A DNA stretch of 64,000 bases from Planctomycetales bacterium 71-10 (GTDB lineage: Bacteria; Planctomycetota; Planctomycetia; Isosphaerales; Isosphaeraceae). How positions within the stretch are numbered: position 1 is the first letter of the stretch; each line of letters begins with the position of its first letter. The notes under the pieces are model-generated. The model saw only the letters and a program-made list of their open reading frames with translations, was not told the DNA's origin and did not search any database. The stretch is taken from NCBI GenBank assembly GCA_001898385.1, contig MKTT01000067.1, forward strand, positions 48,264-112,263. The letters are read 5' to 3'. Positions 8,460 to 64,000 of this stretch are shown here, one piece after another. The position numbers were made by a program, and so were the translations under genes.

Positions 8460-9734
8460 TCAATCGGCCGTGAAGGTCGATTCGATGCGGAAGTCGCGGA
8501 GCAGGGGGATGGAGCGGAGGATCGCCTCGACCCGCTCGGGCGACTCGCCCGGCGAGAGCGCGCCGCGGACCTGGACGACGTCGCCCCGGACGTCGACGCG
8601 GTCGACGTGGGCGGCGTCGCCGGCGTGGCGTCGGATCTGGTGCAGGAGGTACGGCTCCAGGTCGTCGGGCCGGGCCTTGTCGCGGAGCGGGTTGGGGGTG
8701 TTCTCGTCGGGGAGCGGGAATTCCAGCTCGTCGACGACCTGGCGCACGCCCGGCGTCTGCTCGACGGCGCGGAAGGCCAGCATCGCCTCATAGGCCGACG
8801 GGACCTTGCCTCGGATCGTCGCCGCATCCCCCTGCGCCTGCACGTCGATCCCCAGATCCTTCAGCGCCGGCCTCCGCTCGATCGCCTGCTCGGCTCGCGC
8901 GGCGAGGGCGTCGGTCGCGGGGGCGGCCGGCGCGAGGGCCTCGGCGGGCGGGGGAGGGGGCGGGACGACCTCGGCTTGCGCTTGCGCCTCCTCGGCCGGC
9001 AGCGTCTCGACGGGCTTGCCGTCGTAGGGCTGCGGCGGGGGCGGGGGCGTGGCGCGGTCGAGCACCTTCAGGTCGCTGGAGACCCGGGTCACGCCGGGGG
9101 CCTTCATCGCCTCCTGCTCGATGAGACGCTTGTCCTCCTCGCTGGCGACCACGCCCGAGAGGTGGACCTGGCCGAATTCGTCGACCGAGAGCTGGATCTT
9201 CCCCTTCGCCGGCGCGGAGGCGCGGCGGGTTCGTTCATCGGGCGTGGGCCGCTTCGCGGCGGCTGGGACATCGCCCCGGCGCGCGTAAGCATGGTCGGGC
9301 GGGAAGCTGACAAGCGGGGGCTCCATGCCCCAGAACGGGTCGTCGAGCCGGCCGAACAGGGGCTCGGGATAGACGAAGTACGGGGATGGCCCGACGGCCG
9401 ACGCGACGGCGGGGCCGGCCGCCTGGGCCTGCTCGGCCGCGACCCGATGGGCCTCGGACGTGTCGATCGTCAGGGAGTCGTGCGGGACGAGGCCCATGTC
9501 GATGACGGTGCGGATCACCAGGTCGTGGACGCCCTTGGTCCCCACCTTGCCCGACAGGACGATCTCGCCCGACTTGCCCGTGGTGACGCGCACCGGGTAG
9601 GGGAGGATCAGCGGGTTGGCCCGGAGGGCGTCGACGACGGCCTGCTCGGGGCCGGCGGGGGCTTCGGCGAGCGCCGGGGCCGTCGCGGAGGCGGCGGACG
9701 CGGCGAGGACGATCGATCGGAGGCGTCCAGACAT
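8460..9734 (-). CDS. Exported multi-BON-domain protein
   Basis: A 424-residue protein with a likely signal peptide (MSGRLRSIVLAASAASATAPALAEA). Four BON-like modules can be seen at about residues 30-95, 170-222, 283-345 and 368-424, each with a strand - glycine - hydrophobic pattern such as GEIVLSGKVGTKGVHDLVI, QVHLSGVVASEEDKRLIEQE and ATIRGKVPSAYEA. They are separated by Pro/Ala-rich linkers, including a PPPPPP run. BON domains bind membranes or peptidoglycan-linked lipids (OsmY family). It probably acts in the periplasm or on the outer membrane. No partner gene is evident; the next gene downstream is shc, 233 bases away. Confidence 0.8.
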   Translation of the reverse strand: MSGRLRSIVLAASAASATAPALAEAPAGPEQAVVDALRANPLILPYPVRVTTGKSGEIVLSGKVGTKGVHDLVIRTVIDMGLVPHDSLTIDTSEAHRVAAEQAQAAGPAVASAVGPSPYFVYPEPLFGRLDDPFWGMEPPLVSFPPDHAYARRGDVPAAAKRPTPDERTRRASAPAKGKIQLSVDEFGQVHLSGVVASEEDKRLIEQEAMKAPGVTRVSSDLKVLDRATPPPPPQPYDGKPVETLPAEEAQAQAEVVPPPPPPAEALAPAAPATDALAARAEQAIERRPALKDLGIDVQAQGDAATIRGKVPSAYEAMLAFRAVEQTPGVRQVVDELEFPLPDENTPNPLRDKARPDDLEPYLLHQIRRHAGDAAHVDRVDVRGDVVQVRGALSPGESPERVEAILRSIPLLRDFRIESTFTAD

Positions 9735-49130: not shown

Positions 49131-49152
49131 TATATTCGAATGCATATCGAAT
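49131..49152 (+). promoter_or_regulatory. Possible -10 and dyad upstream of the PhoB-like gene
   Basis: TATATT (49131-49136) resembles a -10 element. It overlaps an inverted repeat ATTCGA-N7-TCGAAT (49134-49152). The PhoB-like gene starts 39 bases downstream. A regulator-binding site is possible; no good -35 was found. Confidence 0.3.
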
Positions 49153-49190
49153 CGTGCGGGCCGACCGCCCGCGAACCGGGCGACCCGACC

Positions 49191-49898
49191 ATGGCTAAGC
49201 CGAAGATCCTGATCGTGGAGGACGAGCGCCCGCTCGTCGAGGTCCTCCGGGCCAACCTCGAGCGCGAGGGCTACGAGGTGATCGTGGCGGGCGACGGCGT
49301 CGAGGGCCTGCGGCAGGCCCAGCTCAAGTCGCCCGACCTGGTCGTGCTGGACCTGATGCTCCCGTTGAAGGGGGGCCTGGACGTCTGCCGCGAGCTGAAG
49401 TCCGGCCCCCGGACGAAGGGCGTGCCGGTCGTCATGGTGACGGCTCGCGCCGAGGAGTCGGACCAACTCGTGGGCTTCGCCACCGGGGCCGACGACTACG
49501 TCACGAAGCCGTACAGCATGAAGGTGCTGGTGCAGCGGATCAAGAAGGAGCTGCGGCGGGCGCAGGCCCGCGAGGAGGCCCCGGCGGGCTCGCAGCTCTC
49601 CAGCCAGGGGGTCACCATCGACCGCCACGGCCACCGGGCGTTCTTCCGCGACCAGGAGATGACCCTCACCCCCACCGAGTTCCGCCTGCTGGAGACGATG
49701 CTCCGCCAGATCGGCCGGGCGTTCACCCGGTATGAGCTGATGGACGCCGCCATCGGCGAGGACGCCGTGGTCCTGGAGCGGACGATCGACGTCCACATCA
49801 AGAGCCTGCGGAAGAAGCTGGGGGAGGGGGGGGACCTCATCGAGACGGTTCGCGGCGTCGGATATCGCTTCCATGAGCCGCGGCTCGTAGGGGCCTGA
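49191..49898 (+). CDS. phoB: OmpR/PhoB-type response regulator
   Basis: 235 residues from the ATG at 49191. Receiver domain: acidic pair ED (residues 10-11), phospho-acceptor Asp54 in VVLDLMLP, Thr/Lys positions in VMVTARAE and YVTKPYSMK. The C-terminal winged helix contains LTPTEFRLLETMLRQIGRAF and a recognition-helix region RTIDVHIKSLRKKLGEGGDL. The location at the end of the pst block favours PhoB over other OmpR-family members. The partner kinase PhoR is not nearby. The last 62 bases overlap csrA on the other strand. Confidence 0.88.
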   Translation: MAKPKILIVEDERPLVEVLRANLEREGYEVIVAGDGVEGLRQAQLKSPDLVVLDLMLPLKGGLDVCRELKSGPRTKGVPVVMVTARAEESDQLVGFATGADDYVTKPYSMKVLVQRIKKELRRAQAREEAPAGSQLSSQGVTIDRHGHRAFFRDQEMTLTPTEFRLLETMLRQIGRAFTRYELMDAAIGEDAVVLERTIDVHIKSLRKKLGEGGDLIETVRGVGYRFHEPRLVGA

Positions 49899-50076: not shown

Positions 50077-50300
50077 GGCGTCGCGTCCTCCGATCGTCCC
50101 TGACGTGGCTCGTCTTCCCTCGCGGCGGCCTCGCGGCCCCGCCCCTCTCCGGGGTGTCTGCTGGAAATCTAGGTCATGAGCCCCTACCATTGGGGGTCGA
50201 TCGGCGAGATTGCGCGGAAATTCCCCGGGGCGGCGACCCGGCCGTCCCGACGCCGCCCCGATCCCGGCGCATCCCTCGCCCGGAATCGGAAAGGGAGACG

Positions 50301-51332
50301 ATGCCTGCCGCCCATGCGTCCGTGATCATCATCGGCTCGGGATCCGCCGGGCTGACCGCCGCGATCTACGCCTCGCGCGCCAACCTCGCCCCCCTGGTCT
50401 TCGAAGGCAAGGAGCCCGGCGGCCAGCTCACGCTCACCACCACCGTCGACAACTTCCCCGGCTTCCCCGACGGCGTCGAGGGCCCCGAGCTGATGGACCT
50501 GATGCGCAAGCAGGCCCAGCGCTTCGGCGCCGACACCCGCTGGGAGACCGCCTTCGAGGCCGACCTCTCGAAGCGCCCGTTCACCGTCAGGACCACCGAC
50601 GACCCCAGCGGCGACCCCTCCAGCGGCGAGATCCGCACCTACACCGCCGACGCCCTCATCATCGCCACCGGCGCCTCCGCCCGCTGGCTGGGCGTCGAGG
50701 GCCCCTACCGCGGCAACGGCGTGACCACCTGCGCCACCTGTGACGGCGCGCTCTATAAGGGGAAGGAGATCGCCGTCGTCGGCGGCGGCGACTCGGCCGT
50801 CGAGGAGGCCACCTTCCTCACCCGGTTCGCCACCAAGGTCACGCTGATCCACCGCCGCGACGAGCTGCGGGCCTCCAAGATCATGCAGGACCGCCTGAAG
50901 AACTTCCCCAAGATCGCGTACGCCTACAACTCCGAGGTCCAGGAAATCCTGGGCGACGTCTCCGACGGCATCCCCAACCTCCAGGGCGTGCGCCTGAAGT
51001 CGACGAAGGACGGCTCCACGCGCGACCTGCCGATCGCCGGGCTGTTCCTGGCCATCGGCCACGACCCCAATTCGAAGATCTTCCGCGGCCAGCTCGCCAC
51101 CACGCCCGAGGGCTACATCCTCACCCGCACGGCCCTGGCCTGGAAGGACGCCGACGCCCCCGCCGGCCTGCTCGACGAGCTGCCGAACTACGGCACGTCC
51201 ACGAGCGTCGAGGGCGTCTTCGCCTGCGGCGACGTCGTCGACACCCACTACCGCCAGGCCATCACCGCCGCCGGCTCCGGCTGCGCCGCGGCCATCGACT
51301 GCGAGAAGTGGCTCGAAGCCCGGCACGTGTGA
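50301..51332 (+). CDS. trxB: Thioredoxin reductase
   Basis: 343 residues. FAD motif IIIGSGSAGLTAAIYASRA, the redox pair CATC (Cys144 and Cys147), the NADPH motif VVGGGDSAVEEATFL and the C-terminal FAD segment VFACGDVVDTHYRQAITAAG are all present. It reduces thioredoxin with NADPH in the cytoplasm. ATG at 50301 with AAGGGAG 5-6 bases upstream; the longer frame upstream reads Arg/Pro-rich sequence. Last gene before the CRISPR array, with a hairpin 9 bases after its stop. Confidence 0.96.
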   Translation: MPAAHASVIIIGSGSAGLTAAIYASRANLAPLVFEGKEPGGQLTLTTTVDNFPGFPDGVEGPELMDLMRKQAQRFGADTRWETAFEADLSKRPFTVRTTDDPSGDPSSGEIRTYTADALIIATGASARWLGVEGPYRGNGVTTCATCDGALYKGKEIAVVGGGDSAVEEATFLTRFATKVTLIHRRDELRASKIMQDRLKNFPKIAYAYNSEVQEILGDVSDGIPNLQGVRLKSTKDGSTRDLPIAGLFLAIGHDPNSKIFRGQLATTPEGYILTRTALAWKDADAPAGLLDELPNYGTSTSVEGVFACGDVVDTHYRQAITAAGSGCAAAIDCEKWLEARHV

Positions 51333-51479: not shown

Positions 51480-51661
51480 CATCGCGAACCCCTAGCGCGC
51501 GTCGATTCACCGAGAGGTTCGCGTTGTGTTCCAACTCGTTGTTCTGTAATTGTTTGTGTTCAGGTTTGCCGCGATGCAGCCCTCCTGCCCGAAATTATTA
51601 CGCCAGGACCGCGTCAAGGTTGACGCAACCCCCTTGATGATTGATGCTTAAACGACACGCA
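51480..51661 (+). promoter_or_regulatory. Putative CRISPR leader
   Basis: The 180 bases before the first repeat are visibly less GC-rich than the surroundings (for example GTTCTGTAATTGTTTG and GATGATTGATGCTTAAACG). No gene is supported here. TGTAAT at 51545-51550 could be a -10 region, with TTGTGT upstream at a short spacing. The position upstream of the uniform end of the array and the predicted transcription direction both fit a leader; this is inferred. Confidence 0.55.
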
Positions 51662-54600
51662 GTTCCCTCCGCCGATGAGGCGGAGGGTGGGTTGAAACGC
51701 GTTTCGAAGGGTGCCGGCCCGGCGGGGCGGGGGGTTCCCTCCGCCGATGAGGCGGAGGGTGGGTTGAAACCAGCAGGCCCACGTCAACGCGCGGGCCGTC
51801 GCGAGTTCCCTCCGCCGATGAGGCGGAGGGTGGGTTGAAACCCGCTCGCGCCCTCGCCGGCCCCCGCGACGGTGCGTTCCCTCCGCCGATGAGGCGGAGG
51901 GTGGGTTGAAACCTTCGTGAATCTCGCCGCGAACCCCCTGGCCGGGTTCCCTCCGCCGATGAGGCGGAGGGTGGGTTGAAACATGACCGGCCTCGCCTGC
52001 TTCCTGCTGGGCTGGATGTTCCCTCCGCCGATGAGGCGGAGGGTGGGTTGAAACTGGACCCTGCAAGACCCCGACGCCGGCCGGTCGCGGTTCCCTCCGC
52101 CGATGAGGCGGAGGGTGGGTTGAAACGTCGCGGCGATCCGGGCGGCCCGCGACGCCTGGAAGTTCCCTCCGCCGATGAGGCGGAGGGTGGGTTGAAACAT
52201 CGACGGATCTTTACTCTTTACGAGTGAAGCCCGTTCCCTCCGCCGATGAGGCGGAGGGTGGGTTGAAACCGTACCCGATCCGCCGCGAGGCGTGGCCCCC
52301 CAGCGTTCCCTCCGCCGATGAGGCGGAGGGTGGGTTGAAACCTGGACATGACCGACTATCCAGAAAGCCTGATGGCGTTCCCTCCGCCGATGAGGCGGAG
52401 GGTGGGTTGAAACACCGACTCGCCGCTGTACGCCCGGTCGTTCGAGGTTCCCTCCGCCGATGAGGCGGAGGGTGGGTTGAAACGCCCTGCTCGGCCGTGC
52501 CGGCGTCACCCCGCCCGGTTCCCTCCGCCGATGAGGCGGAGGGTGGGTTGAAACCGCTTGCGGTCGGCCGCCTCCTTGTGCCGGGCGTGTTCCCTCCGCC
52601 GATGAGGCGGAGGGTGGGTTGAAACTGCGACCCGTGGTAGGCCAGGGCCAGGGCCATCACGTTCCCTCCGCCGATGAGGCGGAGGGTGGGTTGAAACCGC
52701 GTCCGCGACGGCGATCGCATCGGGACGGTCCGGTTCCCTCCGCCGATGAGGCGGAGGGTGGGTTGAAACGTAGGCGGCCGATTGCAGCTCGTCCGCCCGA
52801 TCGGGTTCCCTCCGCCGATGAGGCGGAGGGTGGGTTGAAACTTCGACCGACGACCCGAGGACGCTCCATGAACCTGGTTCCCTCCGCCGATGAGGCGGAG
52901 GGTGGGTTGAAACGACGACGCGCCGGCGCTGCTCTGCACGCTCTGGCGTTCCCTCCGCCGATGAGGCGGAGGGTGGGTTGAAACTACGACGCGACGGCCT
53001 CGACCGACTTCGTCTACAGTTCCCTCCGCCGATGAGGCGGAGGGTGGGTTGAAACAAGTCCCACGTCCTCGCCCAGCGACCCCGCCTCAGGTTCCCTCCG
53101 CCGATGAGGCGGAGGGTGGGTTGAAACGCATAGATCTTCGCTAGGTGCTGGCCGCTCGCGTGTTCCCTCCGCCGATGAGGCGGAGGGTGGGTTGAAACCA
53201 GCAACTCCAGGGCGGGTTCATGCAGCAGGCCCGTTCCCTCCGCCGATGAGGCGGAGGGTGGGTTGAAACTTCACGCTCGCCCCCGAGACGAGGGGCTTGG
53301 GAGTTCCCTCCGCCGATGAGGCGGAGGGTGGGTTGAAACTCCAGACGCAGGGACCACGAGTCGAAGTTCGTGGTTCCCTCCGCCGATGAGGCGGAGGGTG
53401 GGTTGAAACCAGGTCCCCGACGCCGGGGCCGACGAGAAGGCCCGTTCCCTCCGCCGATGAGGCGGAGGGTGGGTTGAAACGGGTACTGGGCGGCGTGGTT
53501 GACGGTAAAGCGGCCGTTCCCTCCGCCGATGAGGCGGAGGGTGGGTTGAAACCACGGCGCCGGTTGGACGTTCGAGGGCGTCCGTGGGGTTCCCTCCGCC
53601 GATGAGGCGGAGGGTGGGTTGAAACCGGGCTCGTGGAGCGTGTCGTTTAGCCGGGACGGGGTTCCCTCCGCCGATGAGGCGGAGGGTGGGTTGAAACGCG
53701 GAGAACGACACCCAGCGCCTCAACGCCCTGATGTTCCCTCCGCCGATGAGGCGGAGGGTGGGTTGAAACAACGGGGTGATCGTCGACACCCGGCGGTCGC
53801 TCTAGTTCCCTCCGCCGATGAGGCGGAGGGTGGGTTGAAACTCGGGCTTTGCCTTCGCCACGTCGCAGTCTCCAGTTCCCTCCGCCGATGAGGCGGAGGG
53901 TGGGTTGAAACTCCGTCTTCGCCGCGGCGGCGGGCCGCTCGACGTGTTCCCTCCGCCGATGAGGCGGAGGGTGGGTTGAAACCAGAAGTCGAAGGGGTTT
54001 ACGGAGATGTAGCCCGTTCCCTCCGCCGATGAGGCGGAGGGTGGGTTGAAACAGCGCCCGGGCCGAGGCGTGCAGGCCGCGGAAGCGTTCCCTCCGCCGA
54101 TGAGGCGGAGGGTGGGTTGAAACGTCCGCGCCTCCAGCAAGGCCGACGGCTCGCCCGGTTCCCTCCGCCGATGAGGCGGAGGGTGGGTTGAAACCTGCGG
54201 AAGGGCCAGCGGATCGTCGACGGCTCGAAGGTTCCCTCCGCCGATGAGGCGGAGGGTGGGTTGAAACAGCCAGCCCCCCTCGGGGAGCCGGACTTCGACG
54301 CGTTCCCTCCGCCGATGAGGCGGAGGGTGGGTTGAAACTTCGTAGCGATCGACGACGTCCGCGAGGGATGCGGTTCCCTCCGCCGATGAGGCGGAGGGTG
54401 GGTTGAAACCGGAAGTCCTGAACCCCGTCACGAAGGAATCCCGTTCCCTCCGCCGATGAGGCGGAGGGTGGGTTGAAACGACCTCCACCGGCCGCGGACG
54501 CCCGAGGACGGCGTTCCCTCCGCCGATGAGGCGGAGGGTGGGTTGAAACAATCGCGTCCAAGAAAACCTGGTCGAGGGGGGCCGTTCCCTCCGCCGATGA

Positions 54601-57600
54601 GGCGGAGGGTGGGTTGAAACCCGGGCGGCGTCTACCCGGCCGACAACGCCAACGTGTTCCCTCCGCCGATGAGGCGGAGGGTGGGTTGAAACTCTTTCGT
54701 GAACCTCCCCATGAACCCGCTCGCCGGCGTTCCCTCCGCCGATGAGGCGGAGGGTGGGTTGAAACTCGGGCCTGGCCCGCGAGCCCCTGGAAGTAGCCGG
54801 TTCCCTCCGCCGATGAGGCGGAGGGTGGGTTGAAACGTCACCGACTCCCGGCGATGGGCGAGCGGCGAGAAGTTCCCTCCGCCGATGAGGCGGAGGGTGG
54901 GTTGAAACGCCGCACGCATGGACGTCGATCCGAAGGAAGAACCCGTTCCCTCCGCCGATGAGGCGGAGGGTGGGTTGAAACACGACGTGGGCCCGATATC
55001 GCATGGACATGGCGAGTTCCCTCCGCCGATGAGGCGGAGGGTGGGTTGAAACTTAGCAAATCGCGAATCAGGGTGACCAGCGGGAGTTCCCTCCGCCGAT
55101 GAGGCGGAGGGTGGGTTGAAACGAGGTCGCGGCCTACAAGCAGTATCTCCAGATGGGTTCCCTCCGCCGATGAGGCGGAGGGTGGGTTGAAACATGCTCC
55201 AGAGCCCGCAAGACAGCCTCACGACCGGTTCCCTCCGCCGATGAGGCGGAGGGTGGGTTGAAACTGGCGCGACGGCGTTCGCCCGATCCGCCGCGAGGCG
55301 TTCCCTCCGCCGATGAGGCGGAGGGTGGGTTGAAACACGACGCAGGGCATGTCCCAGATGATCCGCCTCAGGTTCCCTCCGCCGATGAGGCGGAGGGTGG
55401 GTTGAAACGTCCCGAACACGCCTGTGCACGATTCGCTCGCCCGTTCCCTCCGCCGATGAGGCGGAGGGTGGGTTGAAACCTGTGCCCGGGTTGCGTCCGC
55501 GACGTGAGAGGGGGTTCCCTCCGCCGATGAGGCGGAGGGTGGGTTGAAACCAGCTTGCTGGTCGTCTTCGAGTTGGCCAGCCACTTGTTCCCTCCGCCGA
55601 TGAGGCGGAGGGTGGGTTGAAACTCCCGCCGAAGCGGCGGGATCGCGGCGAAGAATGCGTTCCCTCCGCCGATGAGGCGGAGGGTGGGTTGAAACTGAAG
55701 CCCGAGCCCCTGGCGGTGCAGCTTGATCGGTTCCCTCCGCCGATGAGGCGGAGGGTGGGTTGAAACTGGTGGGAGTACGACGCCGGCCGCACGAACGACG
55801 GTTCCCTCCGCCGATGAGGCGGAGGGTGGGTTGAAACCTGCTCGTGATGGTCCCGGGCGTCGGCTCCGGCGGTTCCCTCCGCCGATGAGGCGGAGGGTGG
55901 GTTGAAACGGCGTCCGGGCGATCGAGGAAGCTTTGGACCGGGCGTTCCCTCCGCCGATGAGGCGGAGGGTGGGTTGAAACCGCGATCTCGGCCGCGGCCT
56001 GACGTTCGGCTGCGGTGTTCCCTCCGCCGATGAGGCGGAGGGTGGGTTGAAACTTGTCGATGTGAGCGGCCGTCGTGGTGATGTTGTGTTCCCTCCGCCG
56101 ATGAGGCGGAGGGTGGGTTGAAACATCGCGATCGCGGCGCTGGTCGGCCTCGGATCCGTTCCCTCCGCCGATGAGGCGGAGGGTGGGTTGAAACGGTAGG
56201 GGACCGCATGTCCAGGAAGCGGATCACGCGTTCCCTCCGCCGATGAGGCGGAGGGTGGGTTGAAACATCGATGTTGCGATCGTCGAGGACCCACCATTCG
56301 GTTCCCTCCGCCGATGAGGCGGAGGGTGGGTTGAAACCGGCCCGGCCAGAGCGGCAACCCGGCCGGCGGCTCGTTCCCTCCGCCGATGAGGCGGAGGGTG
56401 GGTTGAAACAAGCCCTGCGACCTGGTTGTCGTGGCCGGGCGACCGTTCCCTCCGCCGATGAGGCGGAGGGTGGGTTGAAACCGGCTTGGCGTCCCGCTTC
56501 GCCCTCCGCTCGGCCGTTCCCTCCGCCGATGAGGCGGAGGGTGGGTTGAAACTTGACCCCGCCCGCGTCGGCGATGTCGTCGCCCCGTTCCCTCCGCCGA
56601 TGAGGCGGAGGGTGGGTTGAAACCTGGGCCCAGGCCAAGGGCGAAGTCCCGGCCGGCGGTTCCCTCCGCCGATGAGGCGGAGGGTGGGTTGAAACCGGGA
56701 TCACAGGTCGCCGTCCTGGGCCATGCGGCGTTCCCTCCGCCGATGAGGCGGAGGGTGGGTTGAAACCAGGGATTGCCGCGAGGCCCGCAGGCGGCGGCTG
56801 TTCCCTCCGCCGATGAGGCGGAGGGTGGGTTGAAACGCAAGAGAGGAGATGGGAGGGGAGACCGCCTCTGGTTCCCTCCGCCGATGAGGCGGAGGGTGGG
56901 TTGAAACCAGCCCAGGATCGCGTCGTGGCGGACGTGGACGGTTCCCTCCGCCGATGAGGCGGAGGGTGGGTTGAAACGAGGTTGAGCACGGCCGACGACC
57001 CGAGCACGAGGTGTTCCCTCCGCCGATGAGGCGGAGGGTGGGTTGAAACAACTCCTCCAACGTGTGGCATTGCTTGCATAGCGAGTTCCCTCCGCCGATG
57101 AGGCGGAGGGTGGGTTGAAACCAACTCGATCCCGCGTTCGTCATAGTCGCGGACGAGTTCCCTCCGCCGATGAGGCGGAGGGTGGGTTGAAACGCGACGC
57201 CCTCAAGGACATGGACGATGAACTCAAGAGTTCCCTCCGCCGATGAGGCGGAGGGTGGGTTGAAACGTCCGAGACGCCACCGCCGGCCAGCTCGACGCCC
57301 TGGTTCCCTCCGCCGATGAGGCGGAGGGTGGGTTGAAACACCTCGATGGCGAGTGTCTTTCCCGCCAGCGGCGTTCCCTCCGCCGATGAGGCGGAGGGTG
57401 GGTTGAAACGTCCGGCAAGTCCCACTCCTTGACCTTGTCTCGCGTTCCCTCCGCCGATGAGGCGGAGGGTGGGTTGAAACCAGCGGGCCCCAGACCACGG
57501 GCGCGGGAGGGGCCGTTCCCTCCGCCGATGAGGCGGAGGGTGGGTTGAAACTCGCGGACCCTCACCACCCCCGCCCTGAGGTCCCGTTCCCTCCGCCGAT

Positions 57601-60600
57601 GAGGCGGAGGGTGGGTTGAAACTTGATCTCATCGCCGCGGAGCGGCGTCACTCGGTAGTTCCCTCCGCCGATGAGGCGGAGGGTGGGTTGAAACCACGGT
57701 TCGGACATCAGCGAGGGGCGGCTGACGGAGGTTCCCTCCGCCGATGAGGCGGAGGGTGGGTTGAAACTGACCCACGCCTCGCATGCCGGCCCTGCGAGGG
57801 CGGGTTCCCTCCGCCGATGAGGCGGAGGGTGGGTTGAAACAACCCACCCGGCCCCATGGCCGGGAACCTACGCCGTTCCCTCCGCCGATGAGGCGGAGGG
57901 TGGGTTGAAACGCCGCCTCGTCGATCACCACGTGCTTGTACTTGCGTTCCCTCCGCCGATGAGGCGGAGGGTGGGTTGAAACGAGAACGGCATCGCCGTG
58001 ATGGCGGGCAAGACGAGTTCCCTCCGCCGATGAGGCGGAGGGTGGGTTGAAACATGAGCAAGTCCAAGCACGTCCGCCCGCGTCGCAGTTCCCTCCGCCG
58101 ATGAGGCGGAGGGTGGGTTGAAACGCCGTTGCGGGTCCAGTCGACGGGGAGGGAGACCGGTTCCCTCCGCCGATGAGGCGGAGGGTGGGTTGAAACGCGC
58201 CGAAGCCGAAGGTCGCGAAGGCGCCCAAGGTGTTCCCTCCGCCGATGAGGCGGAGGGTGGGTTGAAACGACGACGACCCGCGCGGCACCTACGCCTACGA
58301 CACGTTCCCTCCGCCGATGAGGCGGAGGGTGGGTTGAAACCGCGTCGCCCGGTGTTCGGACCCGATCTTCCTGGTTCCCTCCGCCGATGAGGCGGAGGGT
58401 GGGTTGAAACCCGCCGCTCCCGCCCCGCCCCGCCAAGCCCCTGAGGTTCCCTCCGCCGATGAGGCGGAGGGTGGGTTGAAACACCGGCGGGGCCTGGCTC
58501 GCCGCCGCGACGGCCGGGTTCCCTCCGCCGATGAGGCGGAGGGTGGGTTGAAACGAGTCTCACGTCATGCCCCGCCCACCCGCCACCGTTCCCTCCGCCG
58601 ATGAGGCGGAGGGTGGGTTGAAACACCACCCTCCCGACCGGGCGAACTTACCAATGGAGGGTTCCCTCCGCCGATGAGGCGGAGGGTGGGTTGAAACACC
58701 CCGGCCGCGTCTTGCGGACGATCGGCGGGAGTTCCCTCCGCCGATGAGGCGGAGGGTGGGTTGAAACTCCGAGTCGCTGGCGTCCTGCGTGTTCGAGCAC
58801 CGTTCCCTCCGCCGATGAGGCGGAGGGTGGGTTGAAACCCGATCGTGATCGGCTTGCTGAACGGCTTGCCGGGTTCCCTCCGCCGATGAGGCGGAGGGTG
58901 GGTTGAAACATCCGCTCGGGAGCCTACATAACGTCGGGGCCGGGGTTCCCTCCGCCGATGAGGCGGAGGGTGGGTTGAAACCGGACCCTGCCGGATGACG
59001 AGCGGATTCGCCGCGGTTCCCTCCGCCGATGAGGCGGAGGGTGGGTTGAAACCGTAGGCCCGGGACGCCGACTGGTAGGCCGCCGCGTTCCCTCCGCCGA
59101 TGAGGCGGAGGGTGGGTTGAAACTCGGCGAATTTCCGGGGATAGGTGTCGCTCATAAGTTCCCTCCGCCGATGAGGCGGAGGGTGGGTTGAAACTTGACG
59201 GTGGGGTGGCCGCCGACGATCCGGATCGGTTCCCTCCGCCGATGAGGCGGAGGGTGGGTTGAAACGGCCTTCGTCATCATCGCTCGGTCCTTTCGTGGTG
59301 GTTCCCTCCGCCGATGAGGCGGAGGGTGGGTTGAAACGCCGATCGCCTTGTCCGCCCCCCGTCCGACCTTGGTTCCCTCCGCCGATGAGGCGGAGGGTGG
59401 GTTGAAACCCGCAGACCTCGCAGCGGGTGAAGAGCCACCGCGTTCCCTCCGCCGATGAGGCGGAGGGTGGGTTGAAACAACCCACCCGGCCCGAGGGCCG
59501 GGGACCTACGCCCGTTCCCTCCGCCGATGAGGCGGAGGGTGGGTTGAAACGTGTTGATGGGCACGGCGTAGGTGCCGCCGCAGGCGGTTCCCTCCGCCGA
59601 TGAGGCGGAGGGGGGGTTGAAACTCTCAGGGGCCCGGGGGTCTGACTCACCCTCGGGGTTCCCTCCGCCGATGAGGCGGAGGGTGGGTTGAAACTCGTTC
59701 ATCGCCCCCTCCCCCCGGCCCCCACGGCGTTCCCTCCGCCGATGAGGCGGAGGGTGGGTTGAAACTTCGGGTGGGCGTGGTGATGCGGAGGCGAAGATGG
59801 TTCCCTCCGCCGATGAGGCGGAGGGTGGGTTGAAACGGGGTCGCCCGTTCGATCCTGCGGGTCCATCGCCGTTCCCTCCGCCGATGAGGCGGAGGGTGGG
59901 TTGAAACGCTTCGACCATCGTCGCGGTCCCATCCTCGACGTCGTGTTCCCTCCGCCGATGAGGCGGAGGGTGGGTTGAAACCACCCCCGACTGCGGCAGC
60001 GCGAGCGCCATCGCCGTTCCCTCCGCCGATGAGGCGGAGGGTGGGTTGAAACGGCGGGGCTCCGGACGTCGATGATGCGGATCACGTTCCCTCCGCCGAT
60101 GAGGCGGAGGGTGGGTTGAAACTCCCGAGGCCCACGCATGGTCTGCTTCCCACGCGTTCCCTCCGCCGATGAGGCGGAGGGTGGGTTGAAACACGCCGAC
60201 TCGCATGCTCATGGTCATGTCTCCTCGTTCCCTCCGCCGATGAGGCGGAGGGTGGGTTGAAACAAGACCGACGCGGTCCTCAGGTCGATCGGCGTCGAGG
60301 TTCCCTCCGCCGATGAGGCGGAGGGTGGGTTGAAACCGACGGCGCCCCGGCCGCCGGGCCCGACCCCAAGAAGGTTCCCTCCGCCGATGAGGCGGAGGGT
60401 GGGTTGAAACTGGACGCCGGAGAGGTTGCGGGGGCGGGTCGAGCGTTCCCTCCGCCGATGAGGCGGAGGGTGGGTTGAAACACGGTCTTCGGCCCCGGAT
60501 GGGATGACGATCGAGTTCCCTCCGCCGATGAGGCGGAGGGTGGGTTGAAACCTTCAGTCCATCAGCAAGCGGTGCGACCGCAAGAGGTTCCCTCCGCCGA

Positions 60601-63600
60601 TGAGGCGGAGGGTGGGTTGAAACCACGGTTCGGACATCAGCGAGGGGCGGCTGACGGAGTTCCCTCCGCCGATGAGGCGGAGGGTGGGTTGAAACAACTA
60701 CATCAAGCGGCAATACCCGAAGCTGAAGGCGTTCCCTCCGCCGATGAGGCGGAGGGTGGGTTGAAACCAGGAGGTCCCCGACGGCCTCCAGGATGCGATC
60801 CGTTCCCTCCGCCGATGAGGCGGAGGGTGGGTTGAAACAGGACGTCGACCGCATGTTTCGTCGACTCGGCGGGTTCCCTCCGCCGATGAGGCGGAGGGTG
60901 GGTTGAAACCGCCATCGCCCGGCCCTCCTTTCATCCATTGGGGTTCCCTCCGCCGATGAGGCGGAGGGTGGGTTGAAACCAAGTCGCCAGCTTCGGACAG
61001 GCGGCCAGCAACGGTTCCCTCCGCCGATGAGGCGGAGGGTGGGTTGAAACTTTCCAGGCGTCGGAACGTCGCACGAACGCGAGCCGTTCCCTCCGCCGAT
61101 GAGGCGGAGGGTGGGTTGAAACCCGAGTGATCCACATATATTTGCGGATAAAGTTGGTTCCCTCCGCCGATGAGGCGGAGGGTGGGTTGAAACGGGCTCG
61201 CTGAACGCGCCCGAGTCGGGGTCCCAGGTTCCCTCCGCCGATGAGGCGGAGGGTGGGTTGAAACGCTGATCCATTCGGGGTCGAAGAACCGGGCCGTCTG
61301 TTCCCTCCGCCGATGAGGCGGAGGGTGGGTTGAAACACCGATTGGAGGCAGCTCCCCAGCCTGACGGACGTGTTCCCTCCGCCGATGAGGCGGAGGGTGG
61401 GTTGAAACTCCGGTCGGGACGCCGATCTGGGCTTCACTCGTGTTCCCTCCGCCGATGAGGCGGAGGGTGGGTTGAAACCAAAATGACGAGGGGATCGACC
61501 GGGCCGGTCTGGTTCCCTCCGCCGATGAGGCGGAGGGTGGGTTGAAACAGCGGCAGCGACCGGATTCCGCGGCCGGAGTCTCGTTCCCTCCGCCGATGAG
61601 GCGGAGGGTGGGTTGAAACCTCGCCCGCGGTCGTGATGACGATCCGGATGGGTTCCCTCCGCCGATGAGGCGGAGGGTGGGTTGAAACTCGGCCAGGGCC
61701 GCATCGAACGCCCCCGGCAAGATGTTCCCTCCGCCGATGAGGCGGAGGGTGGGTTGAAACTCGGGAGCGTGCGGACGGGCCGACGTCAGACCGGTTCCCT
61801 CCGCCGATGAGGCGGAGGGTGGGTTGAAACATAGACGATCGCCGCTTGATCGCGGTCGCGTGCATGTTCCCTCCGCCGATGAGGCGGAGGGTGGGTTGAA
61901 ACCGGGTTGAGTTCGACGCCCACGAATGAGCGGCCGAGGTTCCCTCCGCCGATGAGGCGGAGGGTGGGTTGAAACGGGCCAAGTCGGGGTACGACTGGGA
62001 GGGCGTCAAGGTTCCCTCCGCCGATGAGGCGGAGGGTGGGTTGAAACGTCGGCATGGTCACCGGCCACGGTTCGGGCGTGGTTCCCTCCGCCGATGAGGC
62101 GGAGGGTGGGTTGAAACGCCGGTCGCGAGCTTGGAGACGCAGTAGGCGTGCGTTCCCTCCGCCGATGAGGCGGAGGGTGGGTTGAAACCAGACGAGGGCG
62201 GAAATCGAGCGGCAGGCGGCGGGTTCCCTCCGCCGATGAGGCGGAGGGTGGGTTGAAACAGCGGGAGCGGGACGACGGTGACGACGGCGGAACGGTTCCC
62301 TCCGCCGATGAGGCGGAGGGTGGGTTGAAACGGGTCGATGCTCACGGCTTCACCTCCATCCCGCGTTCCCTCCGCCGATGAGGCGGAGGGTGGGTTGAAA
62401 CTTTAGGTGTACCAGCCATGTCCACCTCGACTGGGGTTCCCTCCGCCGATGAGGCGGAGGGTGGGTTGAAACCTCATGGCGGTCCATCGCTTCCCGTTGT
62501 ACCTCGCGTTCCCTCCGCCGATGAGGCGGAGGGTGGGTTGAAACGTGATCCACGTCTTCGTCAGGCCGGAGGAGTGAAGTTCCCTCCGCCGATGAGGCGG
62601 AGGGTGGGTTGAAACTCATCGATCCAGGTCTGCTTCCGATCGTGCGTCGTTCCCTCCGCCGATGAGGCGGAGGGTGGGTTGAAACCACGGGCTGTTGTGA
62701 CCATGGCCTTCGATCAATCGGTTCCCTCCGCCGATGAGGCGGAGGGTGGGTTGAAACTCGACGAGGCGGCGCCTGGGCTTGGGGTCGTCATGTTCCCTCC
62801 GCCGATGAGGCGGAGGGTGGGTTGAAACGTGGCCGAGGCCGTCGAGACCCACCTGAGCCGGAGTTCCCTCCGCCGATGAGGCGGAGGGTGGGTTGAAACT
62901 CCCAGACCTCCCCGGCGTCCCCGTTCCAGACGGTTCCCTCCGCCGATGAGGCGGAGGGTGGGTTGAAACCGGGCCGCCATCGGCCTCGGCGACCGCAACT
63001 GACGGTTCCCTCCGCCGATGAGGCGGAGGGTGGGTTGAAACTCGACCCGCCTGTCCCGCTGAGGACCTCGTGACGGTTCCCTCCGCCGATGAGGCGGAGG
63101 GTGGGTTGAAACTGGGGCGCGACGCCGGTCGCGCGGCCGTCGGCCGTTCCCTCCGCCGATGAGGCGGAGGGTGGGTTGAAACTGGACCTTGTCCCGCACG
63201 GCGTCGCAGTAGCGGAGTTCCCTCCGCCGATGAGGCGGAGGGTGGGTTGAAACTCGACGGACAGCAGCGAGCCGACCGTGAACGACAGTTCCCTCCGCCG
63301 ATGAGGCGGAGGGTGGGTTGAAACATCGCCGACTCATTGGCCTGGCGCTGCATCTCCGTTCCCTCCGCCGATGAGGCGGAGGGTGGGTTGAAACTCGCCG
63401 TTGTAGGACTGGACCAGGCTGTCGTAGCGTTCCCTCCGCCGATGAGGCGGAGGGTGGGTTGAAACGTCCTGATATCCGAGCATGATCCGCCACGTCTCCG
63501 TTCCCTCCGCCGATGAGGCGGAGGGTGGGTTGAAACGAGTTGACGGATCGCCGTCTGGTCGCCCTGCAAGGCGTTCCCTCCGCCGATGAGGCGGAGGGTG

Positions 63601-63895
63601 GGTTGAAACTTGAGACCCTGGCCAAGCACGCGCGGCATCGGCACGTTCCCTCCGCCGATGAGGCGGAGGGTGGGTTGAAACCTGGACGCGCTGACGACCA
63701 GCGATTCCCACCTTTGGTTCCCTCCGCCGATGAGGCGGAGGGTGGGTTGAAACTTCGGCTTGGTCCGCTTGCGGTGGCCTTTCGGTGGTTCCCTCCGCCA
63801 ATGAGGCGGAGGGTGGGTTGAAACATAAAAATGCCGACGAAGGGGCCCTCACGACGCGGTTCCCTCCGCCGATGAGGCGGAGGGTGGGTTGAAAC
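51662..63895 (+). CRISPR. CRISPR array, 172 repeats of 37 bp, 171 spacers
   Basis: The repeat begins GTTCCC, contains a 9-bp stem CCCTCCGCC / GGCGGAGGG with loop GATGA, and ends GGGTTGAAAC. I located 172 repeat starts; successive starts are 69-74 bases apart (mean 71.3), giving spacers of 32-37 bases. All repeats read identical except one at 59587 (T to G at 59613) and one at 63788 (G to A in the loop at 63800). The last eight bases, GTTGAAAC, resemble the crRNA 5' handle of class 1 systems (type I or III), so transcription is most likely on the plus strand. The near-terminal variant at the right supports the leader being on the left. Long open frames on the minus strand are artefacts of a repeat without stop codons. 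No cas genes lie in the window. Confidence 0.99.
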
Positions 63896-64000
63896 GTCGA
63901 CATGGCCCGCTGGTGGGGCTAGTGCGTCCTCAGGCTTAAGAACTGGGGTTGGTGGCTTGGGGGCTTGCTGGGTAGCTTTGGGGCCTACGGAGGTGCCCCA
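63896..64000. other. Sequence after the last repeat
   Basis: 105 bases to the window end, starting GTCGACATGGCCCGC. It is G/T-rich towards the end (GGGGTTGGTGGCTTGGGGGC) and holds no supported gene. The cas operon, if linked, would have to lie further right. Confidence 0.4.

Follow-up and report, generated by a model that had tools for sequence, protein, structure and literature searches.

Which Cas proteins serve a very long CRISPR (clustered regularly interspaced short palindromic repeats) array that, in a draft assembly, has no cas operon beside it? The question arises from a 64,000-nt stretch of the genome of Planctomycetales bacterium 71-10 (contig MKTT01000067.1, here C67, positions 48,264 to 112,263 of the forward strand), referred to below in its whole length as the window. 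We consider it likely, with a probability of about 0.8, that this array of at least 172 repeats is read in trans by the only cas1-bearing operon found in the genome, which belongs to type I-C and is assembled on another contig. None of the eight window frames scanned with PADLOC was a cas gene; a PADLOC match to PD-T4-6/SduA at 49140-49898 was dropped, as Pfam identifies this frame as a response regulator. The array and its landmarks are the following:

51662..63895, plus strand: CRISPR array of 172 repeats of 37 nt and 171 spacers (script reading of the window)
51662..51698, plus strand: leader-end (first) repeat, hairpin CCCTCCGCC/GGCGGAGGG followed by the 11-nt tail TGGGTTGAAAC (fold)
59587..59623, plus strand: repeat 112, with the substitution T27G (script reading)
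63788..63824, plus strand: repeat 171, with the substitution G13A (script reading)
57695..57730, plus strand: spacer 85, its 5′ start shared with spacer 126, its length greater by 1 nt (spacer comparison)
60624..60658, plus strand: spacer 126, partner of spacer 85 (spacer comparison)

An earlier note on this DNA had reported 172 repeats, 171 spacers, two repeats with a single substitution and a 9-bp hairpin, and the script count and the fold bear out all four. The repeat unit is GTTCCCTCCGCCGATGAGGCGGAGGGTGGGTTGAAAC (37 nt, 172 copies in the window), exact in 170 of the 172 copies; its hairpin (−20.8 kcal/mol, z −4.0) stops 11 nt short of the spacer. That the array is beyond chance follows from the genome-wide count, since at up to 3 mismatches 173 copies lie on one strand and none on the other, against 0 for a backwards control. 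All 171 spacers are distinct and measure 32–37 nt (71 of 34 nt and 52 of 35 nt). Spacers 85 and 126 have their first 35 nt in common and differ by one terminal base; a single protospacer, its 5′ end fixed, was likely captured twice. Spacers 87 and 110 are also alike. Searched as an exact pattern with 3 free positions against GTDB contigs, from which the genome itself is perhaps excluded, the repeat gave no match and hence no named relative carrying it.

The near-invariance of the repeats had been taken to imply continuing adaptation or strong homogenisation. Set beside 16 comparison arrays (three of them incomplete), this uniformity is ordinary: our array has 0.0003 substitutions per site, the others span 0 to 0.0135, and 12 of the 16 contain 0–2 variant repeats, the remaining four having 3, 6, 7, and 15 (exact repeats in three examples: 140/142, 74/76, and 52/52). 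Special homogenisation is not needed, and the uniformity is the outcome that leader-end copying of new repeats would give. As for size, which the earlier note placed far above the usual, the array is indeed unusual, arrays of more than 100 spacers being described as existing but uncommon (PMC8047081), but it is not extreme: the longest array of a 2019 database is given as 587 spacers (PMC7145573), and 142 repeats are found in the largest complete array among the operons that we fetched from the same family (genome G042) and at least 142 at locus L030. Haliangium ochraceum, credited with arrays of 587 and 189 spacers (PMC7145573, PMC8047081), likewise has single arrays of great length in the same bacterium, one of them longer than ours; the likeness covers size alone.

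The sole Cas1 found in the genome is encoded where contig C89 ends, by an operon with the order cas3, a sigma gene of the extracytoplasmic function (ECF) type, cas5c, cas8c, cas7c, cas4, cas1c, and cas2, the last of which is cut in its final codons by the contig end. PF09709 (E 4.5e-122) and the PADLOC model Cas3c (E 3.5e-191) mark the genome as type I-C, TIGR01876, TIGR02589, and TIGR03640 score above their cut-offs, the single Cas1 matches the I-C model best, and the I-C genes are free of stop codons; cas8c is thus accompanied by cas5c, cas7c, cas3, and cas1c. The repeat, too, has the hairpin ending 11 nt ahead of the spacer that is expected of type I-C. Since Cas5d of type I-C is described as leaving an 11-nt 5′ handle (PMC5965380), the handle of the CRISPR RNA (crRNA) is likely 11 nt long, and not 8 bases as first proposed. 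Among 21 repeats folded at minimum energy, ours included, the tail measures 11 nt in 17 and 6–10 nt in four. Overall, the system resembles type I-C (Cas5c/Cas8c/Cas7c, with a TTC protospacer adjacent motif, PAM) in gene set, gene order, structured repeat with 11-nt tail, and phage-like targets. It differs in its repeat of 37 nt with a 9-bp stem (against 32 nt in 10 of the 21 compared repeats), in the ECF sigma gene between cas3 and cas5c, and in the separation of array and cas2 in the assembly. The earlier assignment to class 1 was therefore correct, and the operon, the sole Cas1, and the homologous repeat that adjoins cas2 in a sister species narrow it to type I-C.

This sister species (G029) belongs to the 18 of 45 family genomes, our own included, in which cas8c is present; from the other 17 we fetched 13 operons. 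In 12 of the 13 the array begins 176–383 nt past the cas2 frame, while the 13th is cut by the contig. The G029 operon equals ours gene for gene, sigma included, with 62–84% identity between the Cas proteins; the sigma gene diverges far faster (38% identity). Its array holds 47 repeats of 37 nt and begins 204 nt past the cas2 frame, and its repeat is identical to ours at 30 of 37 positions, with one compensatory change in the stem (T7-A23 to C7-G23). Just upstream of the G029 cas operon, 17 tRNA genes are clustered (L130:168-1862), perhaps a sign that the surroundings are mobile or form an island. Comparison with G029 also points to a leader in front of our array, preceded by an oxidoreductase gene:

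51481..51661, plus strand: leader (similarity to the G029 cas2-array intergenic region)
50154..51332, plus strand: pyridine nucleotide-disulphide oxidoreductase, ahead of leader and array (synteny)

The first 55 nt of the leader match the G029 intergenic region between cas2 and array at 75% (41/55, E 5e-7, local blastn), colinear with repeat 1; the leader is single-copy in the genome and richer in AT than the DNA that precedes it.

Our genome, as assembled, departs from the usual layout with the array directly past cas2: the cas operon is on C89 and the array on C67. The oxidoreductase locus is a conserved block in all five other genus genomes searched, and a histidine kinase follows the oxidoreductase at once in four of them, with about 0.65 kb between the two in the fifth (G028). 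Leader and array occupy the place of this usual downstream neighbour in our genome, and the histidine kinase is found on contig C113, adjoining a kinase/TPR gene. Because both halves of the ancestral adjacency have new neighbours, we infer a real chromosomal rearrangement that would have moved leader and array together, away from cas2. Two points count against a displaced array: it rests on the assembly continuity of a draft (7.73 Mb, 158 contigs, 99.91% complete, 2.92% contamination), and C89 ends in the last codons of cas2, where a second array could lie unassembled. The main rival accordingly holds that the place is misassembled, the true array following cas2 as in the relatives and having been wrongly joined to the oxidoreductase contig. 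The fragmented draft, the position of cas2 at the very end of C89, and the family norm of adjacency all favour such an error; yet the new neighbour of the histidine kinase on another contig would require two misjoins at one junction, and the leader occurs once, C89 stopping short of it without overlap. We regard misassembly as unlikely, though with a chance large enough to be taken seriously.

At its far end the array runs into an insertion:

63896..63919, plus strand: truncated spacer 172, 24 nt ahead of the insertion (sequence reading)
63920..64000, plus strand: left end of a repeated IS630-like element, beginning at TA, inside which the contig stops (comparison with other contig ends)

The array is broken inside spacer 172 by this repeated element, and the assembly halts there, the end of the window being the end of C67; for this reason, 172 repeats are a minimum. 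Five other contigs also end in the first 55–81 bases of the element, and the left ends start at TA in all six copies. Copies that reach further contain a frame starting MNKKYIVRLSDE (12 residues read, from the other copies), and the element is a putative member of the IS630 family. The last visible repeat is exact, against a degenerate final repeat in 9 of the 16 comparison arrays, which fits a missing array end. The 173rd repeat, which lies outside the window, was not located in C67:28264-112263, in the last 40 kb of C89, or in C113:1-60000.

An array broken by an insertion element, in a window whose scanned frames include no cas gene, could also be an orphan, a relic used by no Cas proteins any more. 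This is improbable in view of the 170 identical repeats out of 172 (none of the few substitutions, 0.0003 per site, lying at the leader end), the stop-free I-C genes elsewhere in the genome, and the resemblance of the leader to that of the sister species. Use of the array by a class 1 system different from I-C, such as type III, is very improbable: repeats of 36–37 nt ending GTTGAAAC occur with other class 1 types too, but no RAMP (type III) gene was found in the genome (search control positive in 4 of 14 genomes; Cas6 and Cas10 without separate search), the single Cas1 fits the I-C model best, and the homologous repeat adjoins an I-C cas2 in G029.

We searched 44 relatives with the array, scoring at most six candidates per genome. 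At least one match at E 0.01 or better was obtained in 17 of the 44, and three of the five best matches fell into one 32-kb stretch of G029; three matches in G042 were to its own CRISPR array. Spacers with matches include:

57912..57945, plus strand: spacer 88, terminase large subunit gene in the G029 prophage-like region, 4 mismatches in 34 (spacer match)
52055..52089, plus strand: spacer 6, same G029 terminase gene, 5 mismatches in 35 (spacer match)
54693..54728, plus strand: spacer 43, head maturation protease gene in the G029 stretch, 5′ TTC
51913..51945, plus strand: spacer 4, head maturation protease gene in the G029 stretch, CAG at the site
58839..58872, plus strand: spacer 101, three IMG/VR contigs at 2–3 mismatches (exact scan of a piece)

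The prophage-like stretch (L193-L195; G029:C1, about 1391-1424 kb) is matched by six spacers (88, 105, 6, 4, 43, and 14) at 4–7 mismatches, compared with a best of 8 in a control region and 9 for shuffled spacers, and two of its proteins match the terminase large subunit and a head maturation protease family, respectively. TTC has been given as the PAM of type I-C (PMC8406640); it stands on the 5′ side of the spacer 6 site in both G029 and one IMG/VR contig, and at the sites of 3 of the 13 matched spacers (background 1.65%), all sites being diverged homologues. In 80 IMG/VR pieces with related terminases, we counted 18 spacer matches at up to 8 mismatches and 1 for reversed spacers; the nine matches at up to 7 mismatches all belong to spacers 88 and 6. 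A Pseudomonas phage terminase match (E 0.2) overlaps spacer 88, and the weaker database matches of spacer 101 fall in genes for a portal and for a structural protein and in one with DUF4055.

Several observations temper this picture. In the G029 region, one reversed spacer match had as few as 6 mismatches, the next best having 8; only two of the nine proteins tested from the stretch match a PHROG, the other seven matching nothing; and 10 of the 13 matched spacers lack TTC. Furthermore, an exact full-length protospacer was not found in phages, plasmids, four IMG/VR pattern scans, or the 44 relatives at up to six candidates per genome, so that the targets are to be read as homologues. Blastn of the array against phages and plasmids returned weak matches alone (E 0.004 or worse), one search giving none, and exact IMG/VR scans with pieces of spacers 85/126, 8/137, and 9/51 gave 0 matches each. 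We ascribed the matches to 49 mycobacteriophage records (E 0.4) to chance, and none of five stretches from an IMG/VR search with the head protease was confirmed.

With the I-C operon reading the array in trans, the plus strand would be transcribed from the leader, and Cas5c would cut at the base of each hairpin, so that the crRNA would keep the 11-nt TGGGTTGAAAC handle. Cascade (Cas5c, Cas8c, and Cas7c) would then locate TTC-flanked phage DNA and Cas3 would degrade it, and, since leader and array appear to have moved together, new spacers would continue to be inserted next to the leader by Cas4-Cas1-Cas2.

How might such an operon be controlled? CreR RNAs are described as repressing cas promoters in types I-B, I-E, and V-A (PMC13131331) and as occurring widely in type I and V-A (PMC12737573). 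A guide and site of this kind came to light when our own sigma-bearing operon (L015 on C89) was compared with that of G029 (L130):

L015:13590-13606: own target site with TTC, the 14-nt match lying at L015:13593-13606
L015:13679-14269 (own) and L130:6524-7189 (G029): ECF-type sigma gene between cas3 and cas5c
L015:14250-14261: ectopic handle GTGGGTTGAAAC, the only GTTGAAAC past position 9000 of the locus
L015:14250-14275 (C89): own handle and guide (sequence reading)
L130:6473-6487 and L130:7184-7210: G029 pair, site and handle with guide, respectively

The 12-nt end of the repeat, GTGGGTTGAAAC, occurs once per operon, just ahead of cas5c, in both genomes. In ours it is followed by the guide TTATGTGAGTGTCG, which matches at 14 of 14 nt a TTC-flanked site between cas3 and the sigma gene, 72 nt ahead of the sigma start. 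The G029 guide is CTATGCGAGTGGCGT and its site CTATGTGAGTGGCGT. Over 14 nt, the sites of the two genomes differ twice, at positions 1 and 12, and each difference has its counterpart in the guides; a single further change, confined to the guides, falls at position 6, the base flipped out of pairing by Cascade. The flank of the G029 site is CTT instead of TTC, which weighs against an exact fit to the PAM rule. The stop codon of the sigma gene lies inside the guide in our genome and inside the handle in G029. Single-strand folds did not differ significantly from shuffles (z −0.8 for our CreR-like RNA, −1.2 for that of G029, and −1.5 for the 59 nt ahead of our handle).

Both an ectopic pseudo-repeat handle in the cas locus and a guide partly matching a PAM-adjacent site of that locus are present, and the block looks like a CreR-like autoregulator of its own type I-C operon. 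With the CreR of types I-B, I-E, and V-A (PMC13131331, PMC12737573), as described there, it has in common that the cas locus contains a guide resembling a crRNA, with a partial match close to cas genes; it differs in belonging to type I-C, in being predicted from sequence, and in the position of its site, which precedes the ECF sigma gene leading the cas5c-cas2 run. In literature searched by title and abstract opening, which is not proof of novelty, we found neither a type I-C CreR nor a sigma gene in a cas operon.

Pairs of this kind extend beyond the two sister operons. We scanned 94 loci, namely 14 of the family and 80 named GTDB loci found by Cas1, 64 of which have both cas3 and cas5 (phmmer). 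A pair required a PAM of TTC, TTT, CTT, CTC, or TCC within 1 kb, positions 6, 12, and 18 being forgiven. Of 88 ectopic handle-like sites, seven are followed by a guide matching at least 12 bases, the next best matching 8; decoys under the same rule, with arrays masked, gave 20 in 18,800, that is, 0.09 expected against the 7 found. A first decoy null had been set aside, its plateau being ascribed to decoys inside arrays, and was recomputed with the arrays masked. Even the masked null still holds decoys from a type V-like array in L037, an unmasked array in L070, and a tandem repeat in G018, and is thus conservative. The L037 array (L037:3727-6262, Smithella genome) is a second one, upstream of the I-C locus, with a repeat that ends TCTACTATTGTAGAT and that we presume to be type V-like. 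With TTC alone and a 3-kb range, scores of at least 14 were reached by 4 of 30 sites and by 2 of 3,757 decoys. Besides our own locus and that of G029, the pairs are found in five loci from other bacterial groups, near cas3 or cas5, whose Cas5 and Cas7 match I-C models best:

L030: site 2598, handle 2803
L081: site 5400, handle 5486
L095: site 5718, handle 5915
L106: site 3605, handle 3505
L107: site 4693, handle 4873

Handle and site both lie between cas3 and cas5 in L081, L095, and L107; in L106 the site adjoins a TTGACA...TATATT sequence ahead of cas3, and in L030 a hairpin and a T run follow the guide. In G030 and G010, weak candidate pairs were discarded because chance likely explains them.

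Alternatively, the guide-like block could be a common motif to which the ECF sigma factor binds, that is, a promoter element and not a CreR. A third, weaker copy found ahead of the sigma gene in G029, the CTT at the G029 site, and the AAC frequent in ECF promoters are in line with such a motif. Yet the shared part begins exactly where the handle ends, TTC flanks the target in our genome, and the same layout recurs with unrelated guides in the five other I-C loci, in which no homologue of the sigma protein was detected. We thus hold a sigma motif to be rather unlikely and favour the CreR-like pair.

Under a CreR-like control, CreR-loaded Cascade would sit upstream of the sigma gene and cas5c, lowering expression until crRNAs compete it off, and the sigma factor is proposed to promote transcription of the system. 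As a tentative idea, doubtful as a whole but worth stating, type I-C systems would carry CreR autoregulators, and the one described here would be wired through the operon-borne ECF sigma into a sensor of array size. CreR-guided Cascade would shut the sigma-cas5c-cas8c-cas7c-cas4-cas1-cas2 run; a very long array would flood Cascade with crRNAs, freeing the site and raising the supply of Cas proteins. If true, at least 171 spacers would be kept undiluted, even with the array torn from the cas genes.

The array itself is of a known kind; what sets the system apart is its apparent displacement together with the predicted CreR-like, sigma-linked control. Long arrays are described as facing trade-offs of array length (PMC8047081), and they pose the question of how crRNAs escape mutual dilution. 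In this genome a very long, apparently detached array goes together with a predicted brake, guided by Cascade, on the operon that likely reads it. Should this brake work, relating array length to cas output would directly test how dilution is avoided, and CreR regulation, described for types I-B, I-E, and V-A (PMC13131331), would extend to type I-C through guide-target pairs recognisable in the sequence.

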